A stretch of DNA of 50,791 nucleotides from assembly GCA_017397925.1 (NCBI GenBank), contig JAFQHO010000038.1, positions 1 to 50,791 of the forward strand, written 5' to 3'. The position numbers and the translations under genes are program-made. The notes below the pieces were generated by a model. The model was not told the origin of the DNA. It did no database searches and saw only the letters and a list, made by a program, of their open reading frames with translations. Numbering within the stretch: position 1 is the stretch's first letter; each line of letters opens with the position of its first letter. Positions 12,998 through 35,046 of this stretch are shown in pieces. This DNA comes from Ruminococcus sp. (GTDB lineage Bacteria > Bacillota > Clostridia > Oscillospirales > Ruminococcaceae).

Positions 12998-13513
12998 ATG
13001 TCTAAAAAAGTTGCAGTTATTATGGGCAGCGACAGCGATTTCCCCGTTGTAAAGTCTGCTCTTACAGAGCTTAAAAAGTACGGTGTTGAGTTTGAGTGCC
13101 GTGTTATGAGCGCCCACCGCACACCTGCCGAGGCTTGTGAGTTTGCTTCAAATGCAAAGGCTAACGGCTTCGGAGCTATTATCTGTGCTGCTGGTATGGC
13201 AGCTCACCTTGCCGGTGTTGTTGCAGGTCATACAACTCTTCCCGTAATTGGTATTCCTATGAAGTCCGCTGCACTGGAGGGTATGGATGCGCTTCTTGCT
13301 ACTGTTATGATGCCGCCCGGAGTTCCCGTTGCAACTGTTGGTATTAACTGTGCAAAGAATGCGGCAGTTCTTGCAGTTCAGATGCTTGCTGTATCTGACG
13401 AGGCTCTTGCTGAAAAGCTTGCTGCTGAGAAAAAGGCTATGGCTGAAGGCGTTATTGCAAAGGATAAGGCTTTGCAGAACGAAATTGCCAATATAATCAA
13501 GGGTGACTGCTGA
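12998..13513 (+). CDS. purE: N5-carboxyaminoimidazole ribonucleotide mutase, class I PurE
   Basis: A 171-residue cytosolic enzyme of de novo purine synthesis that converts N5-CAIR to CAIR. The family motifs are clear: GSDSDF near residue 10, SAHRTP with the catalytic His near 44, and the Gly/Ala-rich loop AAGMAAHLAGVVAGHT. The last strand has MPPGVPVATV. In place of the common AAHLPG it reads AAHLAG. The length is normal. It overlaps the purF-like gene by one base (TGATG). The partner ATPase purK is not in the window. Confidence 0.95.
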   Translation: MSKKVAVIMGSDSDFPVVKSALTELKKYGVEFECRVMSAHRTPAEACEFASNAKANGFGAIICAAGMAAHLAGVVAGHTTLPVIGIPMKSAALEGMDALLATVMMPPGVPVATVGINCAKNAAVLAVQMLAVSDEALAEKLAAEKKAMAEGVIAKDKALQNEIANIIKGDC

Positions 13514-14937
13514 TGGGTGGATTTTTTGGAGCAGCCTCAAAAAATGACTGCATAACCGATGTTTTCTTCGGTACGGATTATCATTCACATCTCGGTACAC
13601 GCCGCGGCGGTATGACTGCTTATTCCGAGGATAACGGTTTTCAGCGCTCAATTCACAGTATTGAAAATTCACCGTTCAGAACAAAGTTCGAGGATGATGT
13701 TGTAAATATGAGGGGTAAGCTTTGTATCGGATGTATCAGCGATACAGATCCCCAGCCCATTATGGTGCGTTCAAAGCTCGGTCTTTATGCTATATGTTCA
13801 ATCGGCGTCATCAGAAACGCTGAGGAGCTTACAGAGGAGCTTTTACAGAACGGCTGTGCAAACTTTGAAACAATGAGCAGCGGAAATATCAACTCAGGTG
13901 ATCTTATTGGTGCGCTTATTGCACAGAAGGACAATTTCGTTGAGGGTATCCGCTATGCACAGGAAAAAATTGAGGGTACAATGTCCCTTATCATACTCAC
14001 GAAGGAATGCATTATTGCTGCCCGTGACAAGTACGGCAGACTTCCTGTTGTAATTGGCAAGAGATGGGACGGTTACTGTCTGTCTACTGAGTCCTTTGCT
14101 TTTCAGAAGCTCGGATATGAGACATATAAAGAGCTTGCAGCAGGTGAGATTATTAAAATGACCTCCGACGGTATTGAAACTATTTCCGAGGGTGACCCTT
14201 CTCAGATGAAGATGTGTACCTTCCTCTGGACATACTACGGTTATCCCACAGCCTGTTATGAGGGTGTAAACGTTGAGGTTATGCGTACACGCAACGGCGA
14301 GATTATGGCGGAAAACGATATCGCTGCAGGCAGACTTCCCGATGTTGACTACATCTGCGGAGTTCCCGATTCAGGTACTCCCCACGCTATAGGCTATGCC
14401 AACAGAAGCGGCATACCCTTTGCGCGTCCTTTTATAAAGTATACTCCTACCTGGCCCAGAAGCTTTATGCCGGCAAGTCAGAGTATGAGAAATAAAGTCG
14501 CTAAAATGAAGCTTATTCCTGTTCACGAGCTTATCGATGGTAAAAAGCTGCTTTTCGTTGATGACAGTATCGTAAGAGGCACACAGATGCGTGAAACAGT
14601 TGAATTTCTCTACGCCAACGGTGCAAAGGAAGTTCATATGCGTTCTGCTTGTCCGCCTATTATGTACAGCTGCAAATACCTTAACTTCTCAAGAAGCCAT
14701 TCAGAGCTGGAGCTTATCGCACGTCAGATAATCCACGAGTTCGAGGGCGAGGAGGGCGTTAAGTATCTTGCGGAATACAGCGATTCATCAACTGAAAGAG
14801 GCGGAAAGCTCCGTGACGAGATATGCCGCAGATTAAAGCTTACATCTCTTGAATTTCAGACACTCCCGGGCAAGATAAATGCCGTGGGACTTCCCGAATG
14901 TAACCTTTGCACTTACTGCTGGAGCGGTAAGGAATAA
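13513..14937 (+). CDS. purF: amidophosphoribosyltransferase-like protein lacking the glutaminase cysteine
   Basis: A 474-residue PurF homologue. The phosphoribosyltransferase half is intact: VPDSGTP, then the PRPP loop LLFVDDSIVRGTQ near residues 350-362. Cysteines at the places where Bacillus PurF binds its 4Fe-4S cluster also appear present (KMCTF, near 237; SCKYL; and CNLC at the C-terminus). The glutaminase half is degenerate. The chain begins MGGFFGA, so the catalytic Cys2 is Gly. The usual HRGQES motif reads HLGTRRGG, and the AHNG oxyanion motif reads CSIGVI. No in-frame upstream start could restore the cysteine, because a stop lies three codons before the ATG. It may use free ammonia, a separate amidotransferase, or have another role. 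Confidence 0.9.
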   Translation: MGGFFGAASKNDCITDVFFGTDYHSHLGTRRGGMTAYSEDNGFQRSIHSIENSPFRTKFEDDVVNMRGKLCIGCISDTDPQPIMVRSKLGLYAICSIGVIRNAEELTEELLQNGCANFETMSSGNINSGDLIGALIAQKDNFVEGIRYAQEKIEGTMSLIILTKECIIAARDKYGRLPVVIGKRWDGYCLSTESFAFQKLGYETYKELAAGEIIKMTSDGIETISEGDPSQMKMCTFLWTYYGYPTACYEGVNVEVMRTRNGEIMAENDIAAGRLPDVDYICGVPDSGTPHAIGYANRSGIPFARPFIKYTPTWPRSFMPASQSMRNKVAKMKLIPVHELIDGKKLLFVDDSIVRGTQMRETVEFLYANGAKEVHMRSACPPIMYSCKYLNFSRSHSELELIARQIIHEFEGEEGVKYLAEYSDSSTERGGKLRDEICRRLKLTSLEFQTLPGKINAVGLPECNLCTYCWSGKE

Positions 14938-14958: not shown

Positions 14959-15996
14959 ATGAATAACAGTTTTTCCGAAAGCTACAAGAAGGCAGGCGTT
15001 GACGTTACTGCCGGTTATAAGGCTGTTGAGCTTATGAAACAGCACATCGCAAGAACTATTCTCCCCGGATGTATTTCCGGAATAGGTGGTTTTGGCGGTC
15101 TTTTCGAGCTTGATATGACAGGTATTTCTAAGCCTGTACTTGTTTCTGGTACAGATGGCGTTGGTACAAAGATTAAGATTGCATTTATTATGGACAAGCA
15201 CGATACAGTTGGTATTGACTGTGTTGCTATGTGTGTAAACGATATTATCTGCTGCGGTGCAAAGCCTCAGTTCTTCCTTGATTATATCGCTTGCGGAAAG
15301 AATATTCCCGAAAAGATTGCTGAAATCGTTTCAGGTGTTGCTGAGGGCTGTGTACAGGCCGGCTGTGCACTTATCGGCGGTGAAACAGCTGAGCATCCCG
15401 GTCTTATGCCTGAGGAGGAATACGACCTTGCAGGCTTCTCTGTAGGTGTTGTTGACAAGGATAAGATTCTCCGTCCCGATACACAGAAGGCAGGGGATGT
15501 TCTCATCGCTATCAAGTCAAGCGGTGTACATTCAAACGGATTTTCTCTCGTAAGACGCGTATTCGATGTAAATGAGCAGAATCTCGCTATACACTTCGAT
15601 GATTTAGGCGCAACTCTCGGCGAAACTCTCCTTACGCCTACACGTATTTACGTAAAGGCTATTATGAACCTTATTGACACAGTAAACGTGAAGTCTGTTT
15701 CCCATATCACAGGCGGCGGCTTCTATGAGAATATTCCACGTTCACTTCCAAATAATCTTGCAGCTAAGATTGAGCGCAATGCAGTACAGGTTCTTCCTAT
15801 CTTTGACCTTATTGCAAGAAGCGGAAATATTCCTGAGCGTGATATGTTCAACACATTCAATATGGGTGTTGGTATGATTGCCTGCGTTGATAAGAACGAC
15901 GCTGACAAGGCAATTGCAGCTCTCAAGGCAGCAGGCGAGGACGCATATGTTCTCGGTGAGCTTGTTGAGTCAACAGAGGGCGTTATTATTTGTTAA
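14959..15996 (+). CDS. purM: phosphoribosylformylglycinamidine cyclo-ligase (AIR synthetase)
   Basis: A 345-residue cytosolic enzyme with CTGGAGGA before ATG 14959. It closes FGAM to AIR with ATP. Visible family motifs are GGFGGLFEL, the glycine-rich GTDGVGTK, the [10 protein letters not shown] segment that contributes to the active site, GGETAEHPG and [13 protein letters not shown]. The length is normal. It follows the purF-like gene by 21 bases in the same operon. Confidence 0.97.
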
Positions 15997-17403: not shown

Positions 17404-17420
17404 TAAAAGGAGTGATACCG

Positions 17421-18047
17421 ATGAAAAATATAGTTGTTCTTGTTTCGGGCGGCGGTACAAATTTACAGGCACTTATTGACGCTGAAAAGTCAGGAGAGAT
17501 TATCGGCGGAAAGATTACCTGTGTTATATCCTCCAACTCCGAGGCATATGCTCTTGAAAGAGCAAAAAACAACGGTATATCCACAAGAGTAATTCCGAGA
17601 AAGGATTATTCAGACTCAAAATCCTACAGTATGGCAGTTCTTAACGCTCTTGATGAGGAGCAGGCAGACCTCGTGGTACTGGCAGGTTTTATGACAATTC
17701 TTGACGAATGCGTTACAAGTAAATACGCTTACAAAATTATCAATGTTCACCCAGCGCTTATTCCTTCATTCTGCGGAGAGGGCTATTACGGACTTAAAGT
17801 TCACGAGGCGGCTCTTGCTTACGGAGTAAAGGTCAGCGGTGCTACAATTCATTTTGTAAACGAGGAGGCGGACGCAGGAGCAATAATCCTGCAGGGCGTT
17901 GTAAACGTTGAAAAGGACGATACCCCCGAAATCCTCCAGAAGCGTATAATGGAGAACGTGGAATGGAAGCTTCTTCCTAAGGCGGCATCTCTTTTCTGTC
18001 AGGATAAAATTGAAATTATTGAAGGAAAGGCATACGTAAAGGAGTAA
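17421..18047 (+). CDS. purN: phosphoribosylglycinamide formyltransferase (GART)
   Basis: A 208-residue cytosolic enzyme that formylates GAR to FGAR with 10-formyl-tetrahydrofolate. ATG 17421 has AAAGGAG upstream; a GTG nine bases earlier overlaps that site. Family motifs are present: the phosphate-binding VSGGGTNLQALID at the N-terminus, the VHPALIPSF motif with the catalytic His near residue 109, and the VSGATIHFVNEEADAG stretch with the conserved Asp. The length is normal. Confidence 0.96.
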   Translation: MKNIVVLVSGGGTNLQALIDAEKSGEIIGGKITCVISSNSEAYALERAKNNGISTRVIPRKDYSDSKSYSMAVLNALDEEQADLVVLAGFMTILDECVTSKYAYKIINVHPALIPSFCGEGYYGLKVHEAALAYGVKVSGATIHFVNEEADAGAIILQGVVNVEKDDTPEILQKRIMENVEWKLLPKAASLFCQDKIEIIEGKAYVKE

Positions 18048-22160: not shown

Positions 22161-23342
22161 ATGTCAAATGAAATGCAGTTAAAATACGGTTGTAACCCAA
22201 ATCAGAAGCCTTCAAGAGTATATATGGCTGACGGCAGCGAGCTTCCTATCGAGGTTCTTTGCGGACGTCCGGGCTATATCAATCTTCTTGACGCACTTAA
22301 CGGCTGGCAGCTTGTAAAGGAGCTTAAAGCAGCTACAGGAGTATGTGCAGCAACATCATTCAAGCACGTTTCTCCCGCAGGTGCAGCAATCGGCAGACCT
22401 CTTTCTGACGATTTAAAGAAGATTTACTGGGTAGACGATTTAGGCGAGCTTTCACCCCTTGCAAGCGCATATGCAAGAGCAAGAGGCGCTGACAGAATGT
22501 CCTCATACGGCGATTTCATCGCTCTTTCCGACAAGGTTGACGTATGCACAGCTAAGATGATTCAGCGTGAGGTTTCCGACGGTGTAATCGCTCCCGATTA
22601 TGACCCAGAGGCTCTTGAAATCCTCAAATCCAAGAGAAAGGGTACATACTGCGTACTTAAAATTGACGAGAACTACAAGCCTGCACCAATCGAAACAAAA
22701 CAGGTTTACGGTGTATCTTTCGAGCAGGGCAGAAACGAACTTGACATCAATCGTGACCTTCTTGCAAATATCGTAACAGAGAACAAGGAAATTCCTGAGG
22801 ATAAGAAAGATGACCTCCTTATCTCTCTTATCACTCTCAAATACACACAGTCCAACTCTGTATGCTACGTTAAGGACGGACAGGCAATCGGTATCGGAGC
22901 AGGTCAGCAGTCAAGAATTCACTGCACACGTCTTGCAGGACAGAAGACTGATAACTGGTGGTTAAGACAGTCCCCACAGGTTATGGGACTCCAGTTTGTT
23001 GACGATATCCGTCGTGCAGACCGTGACAACGCTATTGATGTATACATCGGCGACGAGTACGAGGATGTACTTGCAGAGGGTACATGGCAGAATATCTTCA
23101 AGGTAAAGCCTGAGGTATTTACAGTTGAGGAGAAAAAGGCTTGGCTTGCAAAGAATACAGGCGTATGCCTTGGTTCTGACGCATTCTTCCCATTCGGCGA
23201 CAATATCGAGCGCGCTAAGAAGTCAGGCGTTGAATATATTGCAGAGCCCGGCGGTTCTATCCGTGACGATAATGTTATCGAAACCTGCAACAAGTACAAC
23301 ATTGCTATGGCATTCACAGGAATCAGACTTTTCCACCACTGA
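22161..23342 (+). CDS. purH: stand-alone AICAR transformylase (PurH C-terminal domain only)
   Basis: A 393-residue cytosolic enzyme with AAGGAGGACA before ATG 22161. It transfers a formyl group from 10-formyl-THF to AICAR, giving FAICAR. The family hallmark FKHVSPAGAA is near residue 70, and the SNSVCYVKDGQAIGIGAGQQSR and SDAFFPFGDNIE segments match the transformylase domain of PurH. The N-terminal IMP cyclohydrolase domain of bifunctional PurH (about 200 residues) is absent, so the protein begins directly with the transformylase. The PurO-type protein at 18629 would take over that step. Confidence 0.9.
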   Translation: MSNEMQLKYGCNPNQKPSRVYMADGSELPIEVLCGRPGYINLLDALNGWQLVKELKAATGVCAATSFKHVSPAGAAIGRPLSDDLKKIYWVDDLGELSPLASAYARARGADRMSSYGDFIALSDKVDVCTAKMIQREVSDGVIAPDYDPEALEILKSKRKGTYCVLKIDENYKPAPIETKQVYGVSFEQGRNELDINRDLLANIVTENKEIPEDKKDDLLISLITLKYTQSNSVCYVKDGQAIGIGAGQQSRIHCTRLAGQKTDNWWLRQSPQVMGLQFVDDIRRADRDNAIDVYIGDEYEDVLAEGTWQNIFKVKPEVFTVEEKKAWLAKNTGVCLGSDAFFPFGDNIERAKKSGVEYIAEPGGSIRDDNVIETCNKYNIAMAFTGIRLFHH

Positions 23343-25594: not shown

Positions 25595-26875
25595 ATGAAG
25601 AATGTACTCGTAATTGGCGGCGGCGGTCGTGAACACGCAATTATAATGAAGCTTGCAGAGAGCAAGCAGGTAGACAAGATTTATTGTGCCCCAGGCAACG
25701 GCGGTATATCCAAATATGCTGAGTGTTTCAACGTAGGTGCAACCGATATTGAGGGCGTAGTTGCTCTTGCTAAGGAGCTTAAACCCGATATGGTTGTAGT
25801 TGCTCCTGATGACCCTCTTGTTCTCGGAATGGTAGACGCATTGCAGGCTGAGGGCTTTATGACATTTGGTCCAAAGGCAAATGCGGCTATTATCGAGGGC
25901 TCAAAGGTATTCTCAAAGGAGCTTATGAAGAAGTACAATATCCCTACAGCCTTTTATGAAGTATTCACAGAGTCCGACAAGGCTATAGCATATCTCAAAG
26001 AGCAGAACAGCTACCCCGCAGTAATCAAGGCTGACGGACTTGCTCTCGGAAAGGGCGTTATTATCGCCCAGAACGAGGAGGAAGCTGTACAGGCTGTCCA
26101 CGATATGATTGACGATCTGAAATTCGGCAAAAGCTCCGCAAGAATTGTTATTGAGGAATATCTCACAGGCCCCGAGGTATCTGTACTCTCATTCACAGAC
26201 GGCAAGACAATGATTCCCATGATTTCCTCAATGGATCACAAGCGCGCATTAGACGGCGACAAGGGACTCAACACAGGCGGTATGGGTACAATTTCCCCCA
26301 ATCCCTGCTATACAGAGGAGCTTGCAAAGGAGTGTATGGAGAAGATTTTCATTCCTACAATGAACGCTATGAACTCCGAGGGACGCACATTCGAGGGCTG
26401 TCTTTACTTCGGACTTATGATAACACCAAAGGGACCAAAGGTAATCGAGTACAACTGCCGTTTCGGCGATCCCGAAACACAGGTAGTTCTTCCAATGCTT
26501 GATGCTGACCTCTACGAGATTTTCGAGGCTATCTACAACCACCAGCTTGACAAGGTTGATGTAAAGTGGCACGAGGGAGCTTGTGCTTGCGTAGTAATGG
26601 CAAGCGGCGGCTATCCTGAGAGCTATCCCAAGGGCATCGTAATGAACGGCTTTGACGATATGGGACAGGTTGAAAACTGCTTTGTATACCACGCAGGAAC
26701 AAAGCTTTCCGAAAGCGGAGAATTCCTCACCAACGGCGGCAGAGTTATTGGCGTAACTGCAAAGGGCAGCGACCTGAGAGAAGCTCTTGACATCGCATAC
26801 AAGGGCGTAGAGGGCATCAGCTTCGAGGGCGCACATTATCGTAAGGACATCGGACAGAAGGCTCTCAACAGCTAA
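25595..26875 (+). CDS. purD: phosphoribosylamine-glycine ligase (GAR synthetase)
   Basis: A 426-residue ATP-grasp enzyme with AAGGAGGA before ATG 25595. It joins glycine to phosphoribosylamine, the step right after PurF. Motifs: the N-terminal GGGGREHAII, APDDPLVLGM (the common APEDPL with a Glu to Asp change), IKADGLALGKGV of the ATP-grasp, TGGMGTISPNP and EYNCRFGDPETQ. The length is normal. It is the last recognisable purine gene in the run. Confidence 0.97.
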   Translation: MKNVLVIGGGGREHAIIMKLAESKQVDKIYCAPGNGGISKYAECFNVGATDIEGVVALAKELKPDMVVVAPDDPLVLGMVDALQAEGFMTFGPKANAAIIEGSKVFSKELMKKYNIPTAFYEVFTESDKAIAYLKEQNSYPAVIKADGLALGKGVIIAQNEEEAVQAVHDMIDDLKFGKSSARIVIEEYLTGPEVSVLSFTDGKTMIPMISSMDHKRALDGDKGLNTGGMGTISPNPCYTEELAKECMEKIFIPTMNAMNSEGRTFEGCLYFGLMITPKGPKVIEYNCRFGDPETQVVLPMLDADLYEIFEAIYNHQLDKVDVKWHEGACACVVMASGGYPESYPKGIVMNGFDDMGQVENCFVYHAGTKLSESGEFLTNGGRVIGVTAKGSDLREALDIAYKGVEGISFEGAHYRKDIGQKALNS

Positions 26876-28334: not shown

Positions 28335-28829
28335 ATGACAGAAAAAAATGAAAAAAGAGAGAGAATGAAATACAATTTCTGTTGTCATTATGCCGTGCTG
28401 GGTAACCCGGAGGAAGCCGCAGTGAAAGCAGGCTACCCAAAGAGTACAGCACTGGCAGATGCAGCCGATTGTCTTAACGATGAAAACTGCCGAAATATAA
28501 TAACGGCACTGTCACAGGTGATATCGGACGAATCCCCTGCAAAAGTGGGATTAAGACGATTGGCATTCGGCAGCAGCAGGGATGCAGTAACCCTTGCATT
28601 CTCAGAGGAAGCCCCCACACAGGATTCAATCAGCGAACTTGACCTGTTCAACGTTTCCGAAATCAAGCGGGTAAAGGGCGGCGGAGTGGAGATAAAATTC
28701 TTCGACCGATTAAAGGCTCTTGAAAAGCTTTACGAGCTGGAAACCGAACAGCACAGCAGAGAAAACGCAGACGGTCTGCTTGAAGCACTGGCAGCGTCTG
28801 CGGGAAAGGAGGAAAATGAAAATACGTAA
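28335..28829 (+). CDS. terS: phage terminase small subunit
   Basis: A 164-residue DNA-binding protein with GAGAGGAGGTG upstream of ATG 28335. The N-terminal domain (about 10-60) shows the Terminase_2-type pattern in which cells accumulate helix-turn-helix residues (NPEEAAVKAGYPKSTA, then a second helix to about 56). It would recognise the phage genome start site for packaging. It overlaps the large subunit gene by 14 bases. It is the first gene of a remnant structural cassette. Confidence 0.85.
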   Translation: MTEKNEKRERMKYNFCCHYAVLGNPEEAAVKAGYPKSTALADAADCLNDENCRNIITALSQVISDESPAKVGLRRLAFGSSRDAVTLAFSEEAPTQDSISELDLFNVSEIKRVKGGGVEIKFFDRLKALEKLYELETEQHSRENADGLLEALAASAGKEENENT

Positions 28830-30060
28830 CATATCGAAAAAACAGCAGCTTACAATGAACTGGTGGCTTGACCGCCGATATTCGCAGCACGACGCAATAA
28901 TATGCGATGGCGCAGTGCGAAGCGGAAAAACAATGTCAATGTCCCTGGGCTTTGTAATATGGGCGATGAGCAGCTTCAACGGGGGAGCATTTGCAATCTG
29001 CGGTAAAACCGTGACCTCCCTGCGGCGAAACGTCATAGTGCCATTATTGCCGATGCTCCGTAATATGGGAATGGTCTGCGAGGAAAAAGTCAGCCGCAGC
29101 TATGTGGATATCACCTTCGGCGGCAGAAAAAACCGCTTTTACTTCTTTGGCGGCCGCGATGAAAGCTCCGCAGCGCTTATCCAGGGCATAACCCTATCGG
29201 GAGTATTCCTTGATGAAGTCGCACTTATGCCCCGTTCCTTCGTGGAACAGGCATTGGCACGATGCTCCGTAAACGGCTCTAAGATGTGGTTCAACTGCAA
29301 CCCCGACAATCCCTCCCACTGGTTTTACAGCGAGTGGATAAAGAAAGCAGAAAGCAAGAAAGCGCTGTATATCCACTTCACAATGGACGATAACCCGTCT
29401 TTGTCGGAGGAATTGAAAAATCGCTATAAAAGGCTGTATTCCGGAGTATTTTACGACCGCTACATACTGGGAAAATGGACAGTGTCCGAGGGTGTAGTAT
29501 ACCCTATGTTCTCACAGGAAAAGCACACAATTTCAATTATCCCTGAGTGTGAAAGGTACATAATTTCCTGCGATTACGGCACAGTCAACCCGTCCTCATT
29601 CGGCTTATGGGGATATCAGAAGGGCGTATGGTACCGAATACGGGAGTATTACTACGATTCGCGAAAGGAGGGGCAGTCACGGACAGACGAGGAGCATTAC
29701 AAGGCGCTTAAACGGCTTGCAAAGGGCTATAAAATCGAAAAGGTCATAATAGACCCCTCAGCGGCAAGCTTTATTGAGTGCATAAGGCGACACGGAAAAT
29801 TCCGCGTAGTAAAGGCGGATAACGACGTAGTGGCAGGCATCCGCAGAGTGGCGGCGGCACTCAAAGAGGGCAAGCTGAAATTTCACGACTCCTGCACGGA
29901 TATAATACGCGAATTCGGCTTATACCGCTGGTCAGCCAAAGCAGGCACAGATGCGCCAATCAAGGAAAACGACCACGCAATGGACGATATGCGTTATTTC
30001 GTATCGGAGGTGATGAAAGAGAACGCAGACAATTTCTTCGCAATGTCAATTACACGATAG
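28816..30060 (+). CDS. terL: phage terminase large subunit (PBSX-type)
   Basis: A 414-residue packaging motor. ATG 28816 with AAAGGAGGAAA upstream is preferred to the longer frame. The ATPase domain has a Walker A-like DGAVRSGKTMS near residue 35 and a Walker B in GVFLDEVALM near 133. The nuclease domain shows SCDYGTVNPSSFGLW near 253, DPSAASF and the closing DDMRYFV. All catalytic acids appear present, so the gene looks intact although the cassette as a whole is not. The length is normal for the Terminase_3 family. Confidence 0.93.
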   Translation: MKIRNISKKQQLTMNWWLDRRYSQHDAIICDGAVRSGKTMSMSLGFVIWAMSSFNGGAFAICGKTVTSLRRNVIVPLLPMLRNMGMVCEEKVSRSYVDITFGGRKNRFYFFGGRDESSAALIQGITLSGVFLDEVALMPRSFVEQALARCSVNGSKMWFNCNPDNPSHWFYSEWIKKAESKKALYIHFTMDDNPSLSEELKNRYKRLYSGVFYDRYILGKWTVSEGVVYPMFSQEKHTISIIPECERYIISCDYGTVNPSSFGLWGYQKGVWYRIREYYYDSRKEGQSRTDEEHYKALKRLAKGYKIEKVIIDPSAASFIECIRRHGKFRVVKADNDVVAGIRRVAAALKEGKLKFHDSCTDIIREFGLYRWSAKAGTDAPIKENDHAMDDMRYFVSEVMKENADNFFAMSITR

Positions 30061-30088
30061 ATGACAAACATCTCAAAATGGAGGAAAA

Positions 30089-31216
30089 ATGAAACTATTC
30101 AAGAAAAAAACACCAAGAGCCGCCCCCGAATTGTATCAGGCGGCAAGGGAACAAGGCTCAATGCTGACGCTTCCAAATGATTCGTCACCCTTTGAAAAGG
30201 AGCTGTTCGACAGGCTGAGGTATGCCGTACCCGTCATTGACGCAGCGATTATGAAAATCGTTAGGCTTACAGGTGGATTTCGCCTTATCAGCTCCGAAAA
30301 AAGGCATCAGGAGGAGCTGGAAAGCTTCTGCGAAACCGTCCCCGTAGGACTTCACGGCAAATCCATAAACTGTTTTGCAGATACCTTTTTAGACAGCCTG
30401 CTGACCTATGGAAACGCAGTAGGGGAGATAGTCCTCAACGAGAGGGAGAGGACAATAGCAGGCCTGTGGAACGGCGACAGCACGCGGCTTATCATAAGTC
30501 AGGGCATAACGCCCTTTGAAAGGCGATATGCCGTAAGATGCGCCGATAATACCTGCAAAGCCGTAAAACATCCCGAGCGCATTGTATACGCCGCACTTAC
30601 AGGTGGCAATTCCCTGCTGAGGGGACTGCCTGCAATGAGCAGTATACTTCTGCGGATATATCAGTGTATCGGGCAGAATTACGACCGCGTAGGCAATGTA
30701 CGCTATGCCGTAACATATAAGCCAACGGAAGGCACAGGTGAGTTCATCCACTCAAAAGAGCGGGCAATGCAGATAGCAAGGGAGTGGGCGGACGGTATGA
30801 ATTCCGCCAAATACGGGCAGGTAAAGGATTTTATCGCCGTAGGGGATGTAGATATAAAGGTAATAGGAGCTGAAAATCAGCTTATAGACACGGAAATCCC
30901 TGTCAGACAGCTGTTGGAGCAGATAGTTGCAAAGCTGTCAATACCGCCCTTTTTGTTGGGGCTTACCTGGAGCTCAACGGAGCGTATGTCGTCACAGCAG
31001 GCGGATATACTCACATCCGAGCTGGAGTATTACCGCCGCCTGCTGACCCCCGTATTATGCGATATAGGCAACGCCTATCTGAAATCACGGGGCTACAGCG
31101 GAAAATGTTCCGTTGAATGGGACACAATCAATTTACAGGATGAATCCGTCCTTGCGGAAACGAGATTAAACAACGCAAAGGCGGCAGAAATCGAAGCAAG
31201 ATTAAATATTAACTGA
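30089..31216 (+). CDS. phage portal protein
   Basis: A 375-residue protein with ATGGAGGAAAA before ATG 30089. The middle region (VGEIVLNERERTIAGLW, a LPAMSSILLRIYQCIGQNYDR stem-like helix broken here for length at LPAMSSILLRI) and the C-terminal PPFLLGLTWSSTERMSSQQAD fit the portal family, which forms the dodecameric gate through which DNA enters the capsid. It is somewhat shorter than many portals (usually 400-500). It directly follows the large terminase, the classic order. Confidence 0.85.
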   Translation: MKLFKKKTPRAAPELYQAAREQGSMLTLPNDSSPFEKELFDRLRYAVPVIDAAIMKIVRLTGGFRLISSEKRHQEELESFCETVPVGLHGKSINCFADTFLDSLLTYGNAVGEIVLNERERTIAGLWNGDSTRLIISQGITPFERRYAVRCADNTCKAVKHPERIVYAALTGGNSLLRGLPAMSSILLRIYQCIGQNYDRVGNVRYAVTYKPTEGTGEFIHSKERAMQIAREWADGMNSAKYGQVKDFIAVGDVDIKVIGAENQLIDTEIPVRQLLEQIVAKLSIPPFLLGLTWSSTERMSSQQADILTSELEYYRRLLTPVLCDIGNAYLKSRGYSGKCSVEWDTINLQDESVLAETRLNNAKAAEIEARLNIN

Positions 31217-31235
31217 ACTTATGGAGGAAAACAAT

Positions 31236-32055
31236 ATGTATAATGATGTAAGACTTGAAAAGGGTATGTACAATTTCAGCGGCAAGAGCTTCACAGCAGC
31301 TTTAGAGGAGCTTGACCCCTCCGCCGCATATATCGGTACAGAGCTTGAATCTCTGGACGCCTTTGAAAGACAGCTGAAACGCTTTAATATAAGGGTAAGC
31401 GGCACAGAATGCGACTGCGTGGAAAAATTCTTCACATCGGGAGAAACGGCAGTACTTTTCCCCGAATATGTCAAGAGATGTATTGCAAAGGGATTTGACG
31501 GTACAGTGCTTTCATCGGTGACAGCGGTAAAAACCGTATGCGAAAGCGGACAGTATTTAGGCTGTGTCCTTGATGACACAGCGGAATATGGGGCAACGGC
31601 ACAAACGGTAAAGCTGCCCGAATCAATCGTTACAGAGGGCGATACAGCGGTAGTACTGGAAAAGTACGGCAGACTTATCAATGCCTCATATGAAGCCGTG
31701 AGAAAGCAGCGCCTTGACGTATTCGGGGTAATGCTCAGGGGAATAGGTGTAAAGCTTGCGGTATCGGTAGTTAAAAAGGCAATGGCGGTAATTGCAGCGG
31801 ACGCGGCTGAAATTTCCGCAGCATCCCTCAGCTATGCTTCCCTTCGGCTCAGAATTGGTAAAAACCTCAGCACTGGCGCAGAATACAATACTGGGACTTG
31901 ACAAGAATTTCGCCCTTGAATTCATCACAAGCTCAGGACTTGTAATGGAAACGGACAAGCTTATCGACCGACAGCTTGACAGCATAACCGTATCAATCAC
32001 CTGCGGTTTCAGAAAGATAATGCCCGAAGCGGTAAAGAAAATTGTAGTTTCATAA
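31236..32055 (+). pseudogene. phage major capsid protein gene, broken by internal deletion and frameshift
   Basis: ATG 31236 follows GGAGGAAAACA. The first frame runs to a stop at 31901 (221 residues) and contains capsid-like RLINASYEAVRKQRLDVFGV (about 148-167) and LRGIGVKLAV. After about residue 200 it loses sense. A second frame, open from 31792 to 32055, carries the expected capsid C-terminus: GSELVKTSALAQNTILGLDK, then NFALEF and a DKLIDRQLD motif. The two halves meet around 31836-31860 in different frames. By comparison with the usual family plan, a few dozen residues between LSY and the GxxLxKTSA block are missing. A deletion whose length is not a multiple of three explains both facts. 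Confidence 0.8.
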
Positions 32056-32057
32056 CC

Positions 32058-32120
32058 AGCCATCAGCCATTAGCCGTTAGCACATAGCTAAAAGCTGAAA
32101 GCTAACGGCTAATGGCTCAA
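32058..32120 (+). repeat. nine-unit 7-bp periodic repeat forming a 17-bp hairpin
   Basis: Nine consecutive heptamers of the form AGCnnnn or GGCTnnn. Within them AGCCATTAGCCGTTAGC (32065-32081) and GCTAACGGCTAATGGCT (32101-32117) are perfect inverted repeats with a 19-base loop. It lies between the broken capsid gene and the protease gene. Confidence 0.85.
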
Positions 32121-32142
32121 ATTTTAAAAAAGGAGAAAAATT

Positions 32143-32967
32143 ATGAATACAACCACACTTGAAAAAATCAACAAATTCACACGCCGTCAGCTTACAGAGG
32201 ATGAATTATACACCTTTTCAGTAATCCTCTGCGATAACGAGATAGACCGCGATTGTGAACGCTTTTCCGACAAAGCCCTTGACACTCTCAGAGATATGTT
32301 CATCGGCAAAACGGGGATTTTCGACCACAAGCCCAGCACATCCAACCAGACTGCAAGAATATACGACGCTGAGCTTATCACCGATGACAGCCGCACAACG
32401 AAAAATGGGGAGCCGTACAAATATCTGAAAGCCTCCGCCTATATGGTGCGTACTGATGAAAACAAGAACCTCATAGCGGAAATTGACGGCGGCATTAAAA
32501 AGGAAGTCAGCATTTCCTGCTCAGCGGCAAAGAGGGTATGCTCCATTTGCGGCAGGGATAAATCACAGGGCAGCTGTGGCCATATCAGCGGCAAAAGCTA
32601 CGGCGGACGAATTTGCCACACCGTCCTTGACGGCATATCAGACGCCTACGAATGGAGTTTTGTGGCTGTCCCTGCACAGGTGAACGCAGGAGTTACAAAG
32701 AAATACAGCGAAAGAGCCGACGAAAAATCACCCACTTTCTTCAATGAACCCGACACAGAGGAGCTTTGCCGCGAAATCCGACAGCTTGCCTTTTTCAGCG
32801 GCGGAGTAAGGGCTGTAGAACGGGCAGAGGCTGCAATGAAAGGTAAGAGTATCATTGAGCTTGAAGCTGTTAAAAAGGGCTATGAGGCTGTATCAAGGCA
32901 AAGGGAAACGGAAATTCAGCTTTCGGGAGATATCCCCAAAGAGGATATGTCACGGTTCAGAATATAA
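32143..32967 (+). CDS. phage prohead protease-like protein
   Basis: A 274-residue protein with AAAAAGGAGA before ATG 32143. The N-terminal part (about 20-185) has the pattern NEIDRDCERFSDKALDTLRD, GIFDHKPST and AYEWSFVAVPAQVNAGV known from phage capsid-maturation proteases; a CSICGRDKSQGSCGH block looks like a small zinc site. The last 80 residues are charged and helical and may be a scaffold-like tail. It would process the prohead, but the capsid gene before it is broken. In most phages the protease precedes the capsid gene; here it follows. Confidence 0.72.
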   Translation: MNTTTLEKINKFTRRQLTEDELYTFSVILCDNEIDRDCERFSDKALDTLRDMFIGKTGIFDHKPSTSNQTARIYDAELITDDSRTTKNGEPYKYLKASAYMVRTDENKNLIAEIDGGIKKEVSISCSAAKRVCSICGRDKSQGSCGHISGKSYGGRICHTVLDGISDAYEWSFVAVPAQVNAGVTKKYSERADEKSPTFFNEPDTEELCREIRQLAFFSGGVRAVERAEAAMKGKSIIELEAVKKGYEAVSRQRETEIQLSGDIPKEDMSRFRI

Positions 32968-32979
32968 AGGGGGAAATAT

Positions 32980-33327
32980 ATGGATATCACAAAAATAAAG
33001 CAGTTGTTTACGCTGTTTTCGGGGGAATCCTGTACTGAGGAGCAGGAACCGCTGATTCAGCTTGCCCTTACGGAGGTTGAGGCAATGCTCACTGAAAATG
33101 CCGATAAATCCGATGAAAGGCTGAATTTCCTCTGCGCCGCCCTTGCAAATTTCCGCTATTATCAGGCGATTTCATCGCAGGACCGTTCAGAATACACCTA
33201 CGGCGGCAAGTTCATAAACGACAGCGAGAAAAAGAATCTCAGCTTTGCTGAGGGGCTTTTGAAAGGCTATTTTCAGCTTTGCAGCGATATAATAAAAGAC
33301 TCAGGTTTCATATTTATGGGAGCGTAA
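32980..33327 (+). CDS. phage head-tail connector-like protein
   Basis: A 115-residue protein with AAAGGGGGAAA before ATG 32980. It is mostly helical and of the right size and place (after capsid and protease genes) for a gp6-like head-tail adaptor, which closes the head after DNA packaging. The sequence alone does not identify it; context does. Confidence 0.62.
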   Translation: MDITKIKQLFTLFSGESCTEEQEPLIQLALTEVEAMLTENADKSDERLNFLCAALANFRYYQAISSQDRSEYTYGGKFINDSEKKNLSFAEGLLKGYFQLCSDIIKDSGFIFMGA

Positions 33328-33341
33328 TAAGGGGGATAAAA

Positions 33342-33737
33342 ATGGTAGAAATAATCACAAAGGTAAAACAGAAATTGGCAGAAAAGGGCGTTACGGACGT
33401 ATATTCCGCCTATGACGCAATTCCCGTCAGGGACAAGGGAAAATACTTCACCGTACTTGGTTTCAGCGGATATGAAGCGGAAACCCCCATACGCACAGGG
33501 GAAAAGATGTATATGCCCATAAAATGCGACCTTACAATGACGGTATATGCCCCGATGAACACAAGTCAGGAGGACATATACAACTATTACAGCTATAACC
33601 TTGAAACAACGGTAAACAGCATAGTAAACCTCAGCAGTCGACTGCGCAGCATATCAATATCCCCCGACAGCAAGCATGACAGAATGACTTTAAAGGCTGT
33701 AATAAAGCTTAGCTGTATGAAAACAATAAATCTGTAA
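33342..33737 (+). CDS. phage tail-terminator or head-tail joining protein, putative
   Basis: A 131-residue protein. ATG 33342 with GGGGGATAAA upstream is preferred to the frame start at 33279, which would overlap the previous gene by 49 bases. A mixed alpha/beta chain with an N-terminal helix (EIITKVKQKLAEKGV) and strands around PIKCDLTMTVYAP. Its place in the cassette suggests a tail-completion role; no family was recognised with certainty. Confidence 0.6.
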   Translation: MVEIITKVKQKLAEKGVTDVYSAYDAIPVRDKGKYFTVLGFSGYEAETPIRTGEKMYMPIKCDLTMTVYAPMNTSQEDIYNYYSYNLETTVNSIVNLSSRLRSISISPDSKHDRMTLKAVIKLSCMKTINL

Positions 33738-33751
33738 GGGAGGGGCAGAAT

Positions 33752-34141
33752 ATGACAGAAATAAGCGAAAAGAGGGCATTCCCCGTAAAAATAGGCACAG
33801 TTGAGCTTTACTGCGAGAAAATGACAATGACAGCGGAAACCATATTAAACGTCAATCCCACCATAAACGGGACAGCTGTAATGACGAATAAATGCCGCAG
33901 ACTGACAAAATTTTCCTTTACGGGCAGGGTATACAACAAAGAAAAACCGATGTTTCTTGCAGGCCTTGCAAATAATCTCAACGGAACTGAAAATGTGGAG
34001 ATTATCTATAAGGATTTACGCTTCGGAAGATGTACAATAACAGGATATTCCGCTATTGACAGCGGAGAGGACTACATTGAACTTACAATAAACGCGGCAA
34101 CAAGCAGCATTGCATATTTTCTTGAGGGGGTAACGGAATGA
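33752..34141 (+). CDS. putative phage tail protein
   Basis: A 129-residue, beta-rich protein with AAGGGAGGGG before ATG 33752. The strands and the GRCTITGYSAIDSGEDYIEL stretch would fit a tail-tube or baseplate component. Its last four bases overlap the next gene (ATGA), so the two are translationally coupled. Confidence 0.6.
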   Translation: MTEISEKRAFPVKIGTVELYCEKMTMTAETILNVNPTINGTAVMTNKCRRLTKFSFTGRVYNKEKPMFLAGLANNLNGTENVEIIYKDLRFGRCTITGYSAIDSGEDYIELTINAATSSIAYFLEGVTE

Positions 34142-35046
34142 TTTACTGGCTTAAATACAGGACAAAGGACGGCATAGAGGGATATTTCCGTGATTGTGTT
34201 ACATTCAGCTACATAAAAGAAGCATACACGCCCTATACCACATTCAAAGCTGTTGTATACGGCAATACCCTGCCCGACGACATAGCCGAAATTGACCTTA
34301 ATGTTGAGGGATATGACGTACATCTGGGATTTATAGACAGCTATAAGGTGATAAATCAGAACGGTGTAAGGCGAGGTATAATTTCATCAAGGGGATATAC
34401 GGCACTGCTTACAGAAAATCAGCTGCCGCCGGGGATGTATACCAATATGACATTTAACAGGCTTTTTGACGAATATTTCACCCTGCCCAATATTCAGCAC
34501 GAAAGCAATACCGAAAGCAGTTATATCTACGTCAATAAAGGCGCCTCAATGTGGGACGGGGCGGCAAACCTCACCTATAAGCTGACGGGGAATTATCCCT
34601 ATATAAAGGGGAATAATACGGTTATGATGACTATACCCGAAAAATCGCGGGAAATCACCGTAAAAACCGAAAATATCTATTCCTACGGCACAGATATATG
34701 CACAAGGCGAATGGTCAGCAATTACAATATGGCTGATATGGGCGGAGAGTACGGCACTTTCTCCGCTGTATCAGAGGAGGCAATTGCCAGAGGGCTTATA
34801 CGCAACCGCCATTTTGACCTTGACCAGCGATTTTTAAGCAATCCCGAAAGCGCCTGCGATTACCGCATTATGCTTGCGGAAAGGGGCTATAAGCGGCATT
34901 TCTTCACAGTAAACGGTTATTACGGCGAGGATCTGAATGATTACATTACAACCGATACACTGGGGAAAAGGCGTATAAACGGGGTAAGGGTAACGGGAAA
35001 TAAAAACGGCATATTTACAGAATTCAGCGTATACGACACCACATAA
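34138..35046 (+). CDS. phage tail hub/baseplate-like protein
   Basis: A 302-residue protein coupled to the previous gene by an ATGA overlap. It resembles the tail-hub (gpD-like, late control) proteins of contractile phages: an N-terminal beta domain, a central MWDGAANLTYKLTGNYPYI stretch and a C-terminal Arg-rich GKRRINGVRVTG segment. It is the last phage-like gene; no tape measure, tail fibre, lysis or integrase gene is present, so the tail operon is cut short. Confidence 0.62.
   Translation: MIYWLKYRTKDGIEGYFRDCVTFSYIKEAYTPYTTFKAVVYGNTLPDDIAEIDLNVEGYDVHLGFIDSYKVINQNGVRRGIISSRGYTALLTENQLPPGMYTNMTFNRLFDEYFTLPNIQHESNTESSYIYVNKGASMWDGAANLTYKLTGNYPYIKGNNTVMMTIPEKSREITVKTENIYSYGTDICTRRMVSNYNMADMGGEYGTFSAVSEEAIARGLIRNRHFDLDQRFLSNPESACDYRIMLAERGYKRHFFTVNGYYGEDLNDYITTDTLGKRRINGVRVTGNKNGIFTEFSVYDTT

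Follow-up and report, generated by a model that had tools for sequence, protein, structure and literature searches.

The gene between purE and purM in the window (the whole stretch of 50,791 nucleotides of Ruminococcus sp. DNA that was analyzed) encodes a PurF-type protein without a glutaminase site. Judging from this missing glutamine site and from its recurrent presence as the sole copy in a genome, the protein is probably the ammonia-dependent phosphoribosylamine (PRA) synthase of the organism. In the standard teaching, glutamine supplies the nitrogen for the first committed step of purine synthesis. The open reading frame (positions 13513 to 14937, forward strand, 474 amino acids, beginning MGGFFGAASKNDC), here called PurF-variant, shares one base with the stop codon of purE. 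Its place in a purine cluster, already proposed in the first-pass annotation, was borne out by profiles above their cutoffs on either side, namely, purE (12998 to 13513; TIGR01162, 183 bits) and purM (14959 to 15996; TIGR00878, 438 bits). Farther along the same strand are purN (17412 to 18047; TIGR00639, 196 bits) and purD (25595 to 26875; TIGR00877, 531 bits), both also above the cutoff, the latter coding for the enzyme that consumes PRA. Between them, the window PurH (22161 to 23342, forward strand) is an AICAR formyltransferase alone (NF005492, 717 bits, likewise above the NCBIfam cutoff), without an IMP cyclohydrolase domain in the same protein, as TIGR00355 matched only from position 206. 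Downstream from purD, the region from 28335 to 35046 contains phage-type genes (a terminase large subunit and a portal match under the cutoff) and is likely a prophage or its remnant.

With the purF profile TIGR01134, PurF-variant reached 181 bits, below the cutoff of 350, while PurF chains of the PDB matched it in sequence searches with E values down to 2e-43. The AlphaFold2 model (mean pLDDT of 87.5, with low confidence at the loop formed by residues 312 to 320) retrieved PurF structures at ranks 1 to 17 of the PDB comparison, with TM scores of 0.80 to 0.83 normalized by the query and 1ao0 as the best match. It could be superimposed along its full length on the enzymes of Bacillus subtilis (1ao0 and 1gph), Arabidopsis (6lbp) and Escherichia coli (1ecf), and as modeled, PurF-variant has the complete PurF fold and domain order. 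By its glutaminase features it falls outside the PurF equivalog, but its fold, its PRPP site, its Fe-S cysteines and its genomic place make it appear to fill the same slot.

The residue tally was obtained from an alignment of 29 canonical PurF proteins from relatives with 58 variants, which comprised the window protein, those of Clostridia and other phylum-sample genomes, those of Bacteroidota and Peptoclostridium records and that of one viral contig. For the numbering, the roles of the residues and the list of glutamine-site positions (Arg73, Asn101, Gly102 and Asp127) we assumed those of B. subtilis PurF. The catalytic cysteine, reported as lost in the first-pass annotation on the basis of the N terminus MGGFFGA, is indeed missing: at this column, 54 of the 58 variants have Gly, the other 4 have Ser and none has Cys, against Cys in 29/29 canonical proteins. 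In the window, MGGFFG (13513 to 13530) stands in place of CG[VI]FG, and the nucleophile corresponds to Gly2. Three more relatives that were left out of this alignment (L148, L149 and L159) also lack the cysteine when inspected by eye. Since no member of the aligned family carries it, chance or sequencing error can be excluded.

An error in the start site does not hide the residue either, as had been anticipated: an in-frame TGA is found at 13504 to 13506, followed by two Leu codons (CTG CTG) before the Met, so that an earlier start could not add a cysteine. We also considered Cys13 as an alternative nucleophile and discarded it because it is Ala in L047, hence not universal, and is not N-terminal. 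Decay into a pseudogene was rejected as well, given the identities of 82 to 97% in the best 80 of 231 contig matches and the 106 invariant columns in an alignment of 41 variants reaching down to 54% identity.

The remaining glutamine-site positions changed in two ways. The motifs singled out in the first-pass annotation, HLGTRRGG opposite LQHRGQE and CSIGVI opposite AHNGN, are replaced in place rather than absent, with Leu27 at the R of QHRG, Ile97 at Asn101 (Val, Ile or Thr in 58/58) and Ser128 at Asp127 (Asp in only 3/58). The true deletion affects the glutamine loop (RYxTxG in canonical proteins), which is lost together with Arg73 and Tyr74 in 58/58 variants, leaving ISD (residues 75 to 77, 13735 to 13743) at that site. 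Gly102, in turn, is present in the window protein and in 56/58 variants.

The PRPP-binding loop (DDSIVRGTQ, residues 350 to 358, 14560 to 14586) retains D-S-x-V-R-G-T in 58/58 variants. The likely Fe-S ligands, which we take to be the four cysteines of the B. subtilis type, are Cys235 (14215 to 14217), Cys387 (14671 to 14673) and Cys466 and Cys469 in CTYC (14908 to 14919), each of them conserved in all 58 variants and all 29 canonical proteins, in agreement with what had been noted from the window alone. The flexible loop of the phosphoribosyltransferase (PRTase) domain was rewritten, from KNKYIGRTF in canonical proteins to KYTPTWxRSF in the variants (KYTPTWPRSF in the window, residues 309 to 318, 14437 to 14466).

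The N-terminal domain has acquired conserved residues of its own. Across the 41 variants, invariant positions include DYHSHLG (residues 22 to 28, 13576 to 13596, opposite the canonical LQHRGQE region), I47, H48, I50, N52, P54, F55, R56, K58 and F59, among others. Beyond this set some of these residues are relaxed; the Bacteroidota records, for example, have DYN instead of DYH, and L149 has HLA instead of HLG. Selection thus seems to act on the domain for a function other than glutamine hydrolysis. One reading would make it a new active or binding site of a still active phosphoribosyltransferase that uses another nitrogen donor or acceptor. The invariance of Tyr23, His26, Arg56, Lys58, Ser76 and Asp77 in the 41 sequences fits such a site, and a different amine acceptor is possible because the PRTase flexible loop was also rewritten. 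The gene neighborhood offers some further support, with pepT directly downstream from the variant in two phyla, in the records of Peptoclostridium (L162), Bacteroides finegoldii (L163) and Parabacteroides distasonis (L164). In the two Bacteroidota records the next gene is gcvT, which belongs to glycine cleavage, a reaction that frees ammonia. Among 164 loci, pepT was a neighbor only in the Peptoclostridium and these two Bacteroidota records and in none of the others. We nevertheless consider this reading quite unlikely, since the place of the variant in pur clusters, where relatives have purF, points to PRA as the product.

At the genus level, purM was found downstream in 78 of 80 loci (gap of at most 0.6 kb, median of 50 bases). 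Upstream, purE was found in 75 of 80 (gap of at most 2.6 kb, median of 1.4 kb), and all the loci missing one or the other are near contig ends. Direct adjacency to purE, as in the window, was seen in 1 of the 75, the two genes being mostly nonadjacent. Canonical purF occupies the position between purE and purM in four loci (L010, L011, L014 and L027), where purE is again followed by a gap the size of a gene, and both forms stand in tandem in L008, L013 and L009/L048. At the class level, with flanks of 1.5 kb, purE and purM were both beside the variant in 12 of 29 loci, and the many loci without them at this distance count against our main reading. Ten more variant neighbors were scanned and gave no purine gene, one of them being an amino acid ABC transporter binding protein.

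Far from being the single odd paralogue of the first-pass annotation, PurF-variant belongs to what is, by sequence, an old, deep, conserved and widespread clade. Variants and canonical PurF lie on opposite sides of one long branch (SH-aLRT of 100) in a quick tree without bootstrap built from 23 variant and 28 canonical rows. Among the 36 genomes of the genus sample, including that of the window, 27 have both forms, 8 only the variant and 1 (74% complete) neither. The class sample (118 genomes) contains the variant, at >300 bits, in 40 genomes, 22 with and 18 without a second canonical-like match, these second matches being 29 to 36% identical to the window protein and called canonical-like by the match alone. 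In the order sample (297 genomes, all at least 95% complete except the genome of the window), 171 genomes have the variant, 109 have only canonical-type matches and 17 have no PurF-like match. The phylum sample yielded it in 17 of 299 genomes at an E value of ≤1e-90. It is also found, at 50 to 52% identity, on a megaplasmid of Peptoclostridium acidaminophilum and on Bacteroides, Phocaeicola and Parabacteroides records of a plasmid collection. A PurF variant of 458 amino acids starting with MSGFFG is encoded by the viral contig IMGVR_UViG_3300005613_000033 (L161, 5001 to 6377). Two contigs titled Alistipes (L076 and L096) carry a Ruminococcus-like variant at 87 to 90% identity, so that these titles are probably wrong.

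The protein is named amidophosphoribosyltransferase in two of three annotated public records and hypothetical protein in the third. We found no description of a glutaminase-less PurF family in the titles and abstracts of the literature searched, a scope that did not extend to subscription papers. The locus tags BT0548 to BT0550, considered as a lead to the family, did not point to it; BT0548 is a diaminopimelate epimerase.

The sole-copy pattern is another line of evidence. In the genome of the window, a draft of 87 contigs and 90% completeness, no match exceeded the TIGR01134 cutoff, and thus no second, canonical purF was found there. Of the 171 order-level genomes with the variant, 64 (this one included) showed no second PurF-like match, and none of the other 63 had a hit over the cutoff when rescanned with TIGR01134. 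We removed one of them (G609) because one of its contigs ends with a fragment of a canonical N terminus, leaving 62 variant-only genomes. purD was over the cutoff in 60 of these 62, compared to 4 of the 17 genomes without any PurF-like match (Fisher P = 8e-10, too small a value because the genomes are related), and the class sample gave 16 of 18 variant-only genomes against 1 of 13 with neither PurF. When alone, the variant is therefore nearly always accompanied by the PRA-consuming enzyme. In Salmonella, PurF-independent routes are reported never to have provided enough PRA for purine needs (PMC3485032). Accordingly, genomes that have purD and no PurF other than the variant most likely rely on it.

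Some cases do not conform. Two variant-only genomes lack purD (G727 and G055), and purD was found without either PurF in four genomes of the order sample (G056, G486, G487 and G715) and in one of the relatives sample (G049), possibly due to assembly gaps or to another PRA source. These seven genomes indicate that absence calls on drafts are imperfect. All the variant-only genomes are drafts of at least 6 contigs (the fewest in G736, with 6), and the single-contig genomes with the variant (G519, G658 and G662) each have a second PurF-like match. Draft gaps alone are unlikely to have hidden a canonical purF across 62 genomes that are at least 95% complete, none of them in a single contig. Counting against our main reading, 107 of the 297 order-level genomes have at least one further PurF-like match beside the variant, which is thus not needed as the sole enzyme there.

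These coexisting copies speak for a noncatalytic role, with PurF-variant acting as a PRPP sensor or a regulatory subunit of purine synthesis, and both the canonical PurF present in 27 of the 36 genus-sample genomes and the tandem arrangements described above are compatible with it. However, the PRPP loop and the Fe-S cysteines are invariant, the viral variant comes without purE, purM, purN, purH or purD (no match in the 11 kb examined), and its occurrence as the sole PurF-type protein detected in 62 genomes, 60 of them with purD, is evidence against the variant being a pure regulator. Of the three roles put forward in the first-pass annotation, this one is very unlikely, and the ammonia-dependent PRA synthase is favored.

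What is known of altered PurF proteins agrees with the ammonia-dependent reading. Changing Cys1 of E. coli PurF to Ala or Ser is reported to abolish the use of glutamine, while ammonia still serves (PMC3261824), and from these mutants a PurF without the glutamine site would be expected to work as an ammonia enzyme. Compared to canonical PurF, PurF-variant keeps the full-length fold with the same domain order, the PRPP loop, the four Fe-S cysteines and the pur cluster, whereas it differs by the loss of Cys1, Arg73, Asn101 and the glutamine loop, by its rewritten flexible loop, by its score below the TIGR01134 cutoff and by its separate clade. The closest published case is the crenarchaeal PurF', described as a paralogue without the N-terminal Cys located near pur genes, for which the authors named ammonia-dependent amination as one possibility to test (Biol Direct 2011;6:63, PMC3261824). 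Going by that description, both families lack the N-terminal cysteine and accompany pur genes, but in every crenarchaeon a Cys-bearing PurF is present as well, whereas no canonical PurF exceeded the cutoff in the genome of the window and in 62 order-level drafts. Mlab_0150 of Methanocorpusculum, a PurF copy with Ser for Cys, is presented in the same article as the product of a relatively recent duplication in a genome that also has a normal PurF (PMC3261824). It shares the lack of Cys with PurF-variant and differs in age, as the variant clade is old.

A glutaminase encoded elsewhere is the remaining alternative. PurF-variant would then be one subunit of a two-subunit enzyme in which a separate glutaminase docks on the dead N-terminal domain and feeds it ammonia, as CarA does to CarB. 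A docking face would explain why this domain is retained and strongly conserved at new positions, and some amidation genes are close to variant loci. carB is immediately upstream of the variant in five loci of four genomes (L165 to L169), and one genome (G142) has the order glmS, variant, guaA (L066 and L170; guaA at 504 to 1541 and 1194 to 2231, respectively). Still, the annotated flanks of variant loci contain no recurrent glutaminase gene, and the carB genes next to the variant have no carA beside them. In the genome of the window, the two small amidotransferase-like open reading frames L004 and L005 adjoin, by eye, integrase-like and amidoligase-type genes rather than pur genes. We regard the separate amidotransferase, already suggested in the first-pass annotation, as unlikely, the partner having to be encoded away from the flanks examined.

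The ammonia-dependent reading has a possible parallel in carbamoyl phosphate synthesis. The genome of the window has one carB over the cutoff (G000:C17:124661-127804; L193, 4587 to 7811), complete and coding for 1,074 amino acids, and no carA match at an E value of ≤0.001 in the draft. This carB is flanked by xylanase and Na/Pi symporter genes. carA was counted in 12 genomes only. In G013 (98% complete), the hits over the cutoff comprised one carB and no carA, and G142 (91% complete, 8% contamination) gave a carB without any match to carA. A set of 11 CarB proteins without carA in the stretch examined, including the five linked to the variant, share one side of a branch (SH-aLRT of 100), subject to a long-branch warning; of the other five CarB in the tree, only three are neighbored by carA. 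CarB HMM scores, used to split the CarB types, overlapped between 40 variant-only and 40 canonical-only genomes, taken first in list order from 62 and 109, respectively. The guaA product of G142 seems to lack its glutaminase domain too, as the model matched only from position 190. We found no description of an orphan CarB in the titles and abstracts searched, again with subscription papers outside the scope. Glutamine use does not seem to have been lost in general, since other amidotransferases of the window genome, named by eye, keep the cysteine (GlmS-like, MCGIVG; AsnB-like, MCGITG and MCGIAG).

The glutaminase fold and the reaction of human CPS1 are unrelated to those of PurF. CPS1 is nonetheless described as an amidotransferase with a dead glutaminase-like domain that takes ammonia from the environment and needs N-acetylglutamate (PMC4655335). 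PurF-variant would work alike, through a dead glutaminase domain, the N-acetylglutamate requirement being a feature of CPS1.

Under the ammonia-dependent reading, the PRTase domain of PurF-variant would bind PRPP and, provided that the protein is catalytically active, as we infer, would convert PRPP and NH3 into 5-phosphoribosylamine and PPi, with free ammonia as the putative donor in place of that derived from glutamine. The redesigned flexible loop (KYTPTWxRSF), together with the site in the N-terminal domain, may let ammonia in, gate its entry or act as a ligand sensor, and the ammonia-rich gut could be the environment that selects for this form. More tentatively, gut bacteria might run an ammonia-fed nucleotide synthesis comprising the glutaminase-less PurF, the CarA-less CarB clade and, in one genome, a glutaminase-less GuaA, with the former glutaminase domain of PurF turned into a new ligand site or an ammonia gate; we lean somewhat against this broader scheme.

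As dozens of related genomes show only PurF-variant, they probably use free ammonia as well. What is new with respect to the published PurF' is a widespread bacterial clade that is the sole PurF found in dozens of species, and because in many cases the variant seems to function where a normal PurF is missing, the idea advanced for the archaeal protein in 2011 becomes testable. If the ammonia-dependent reading is true, purine synthesis in many gut anaerobes is coupled directly to free ammonia, which would have consequences for models of nitrogen in the rumen and gut and for the annotation of these genes.
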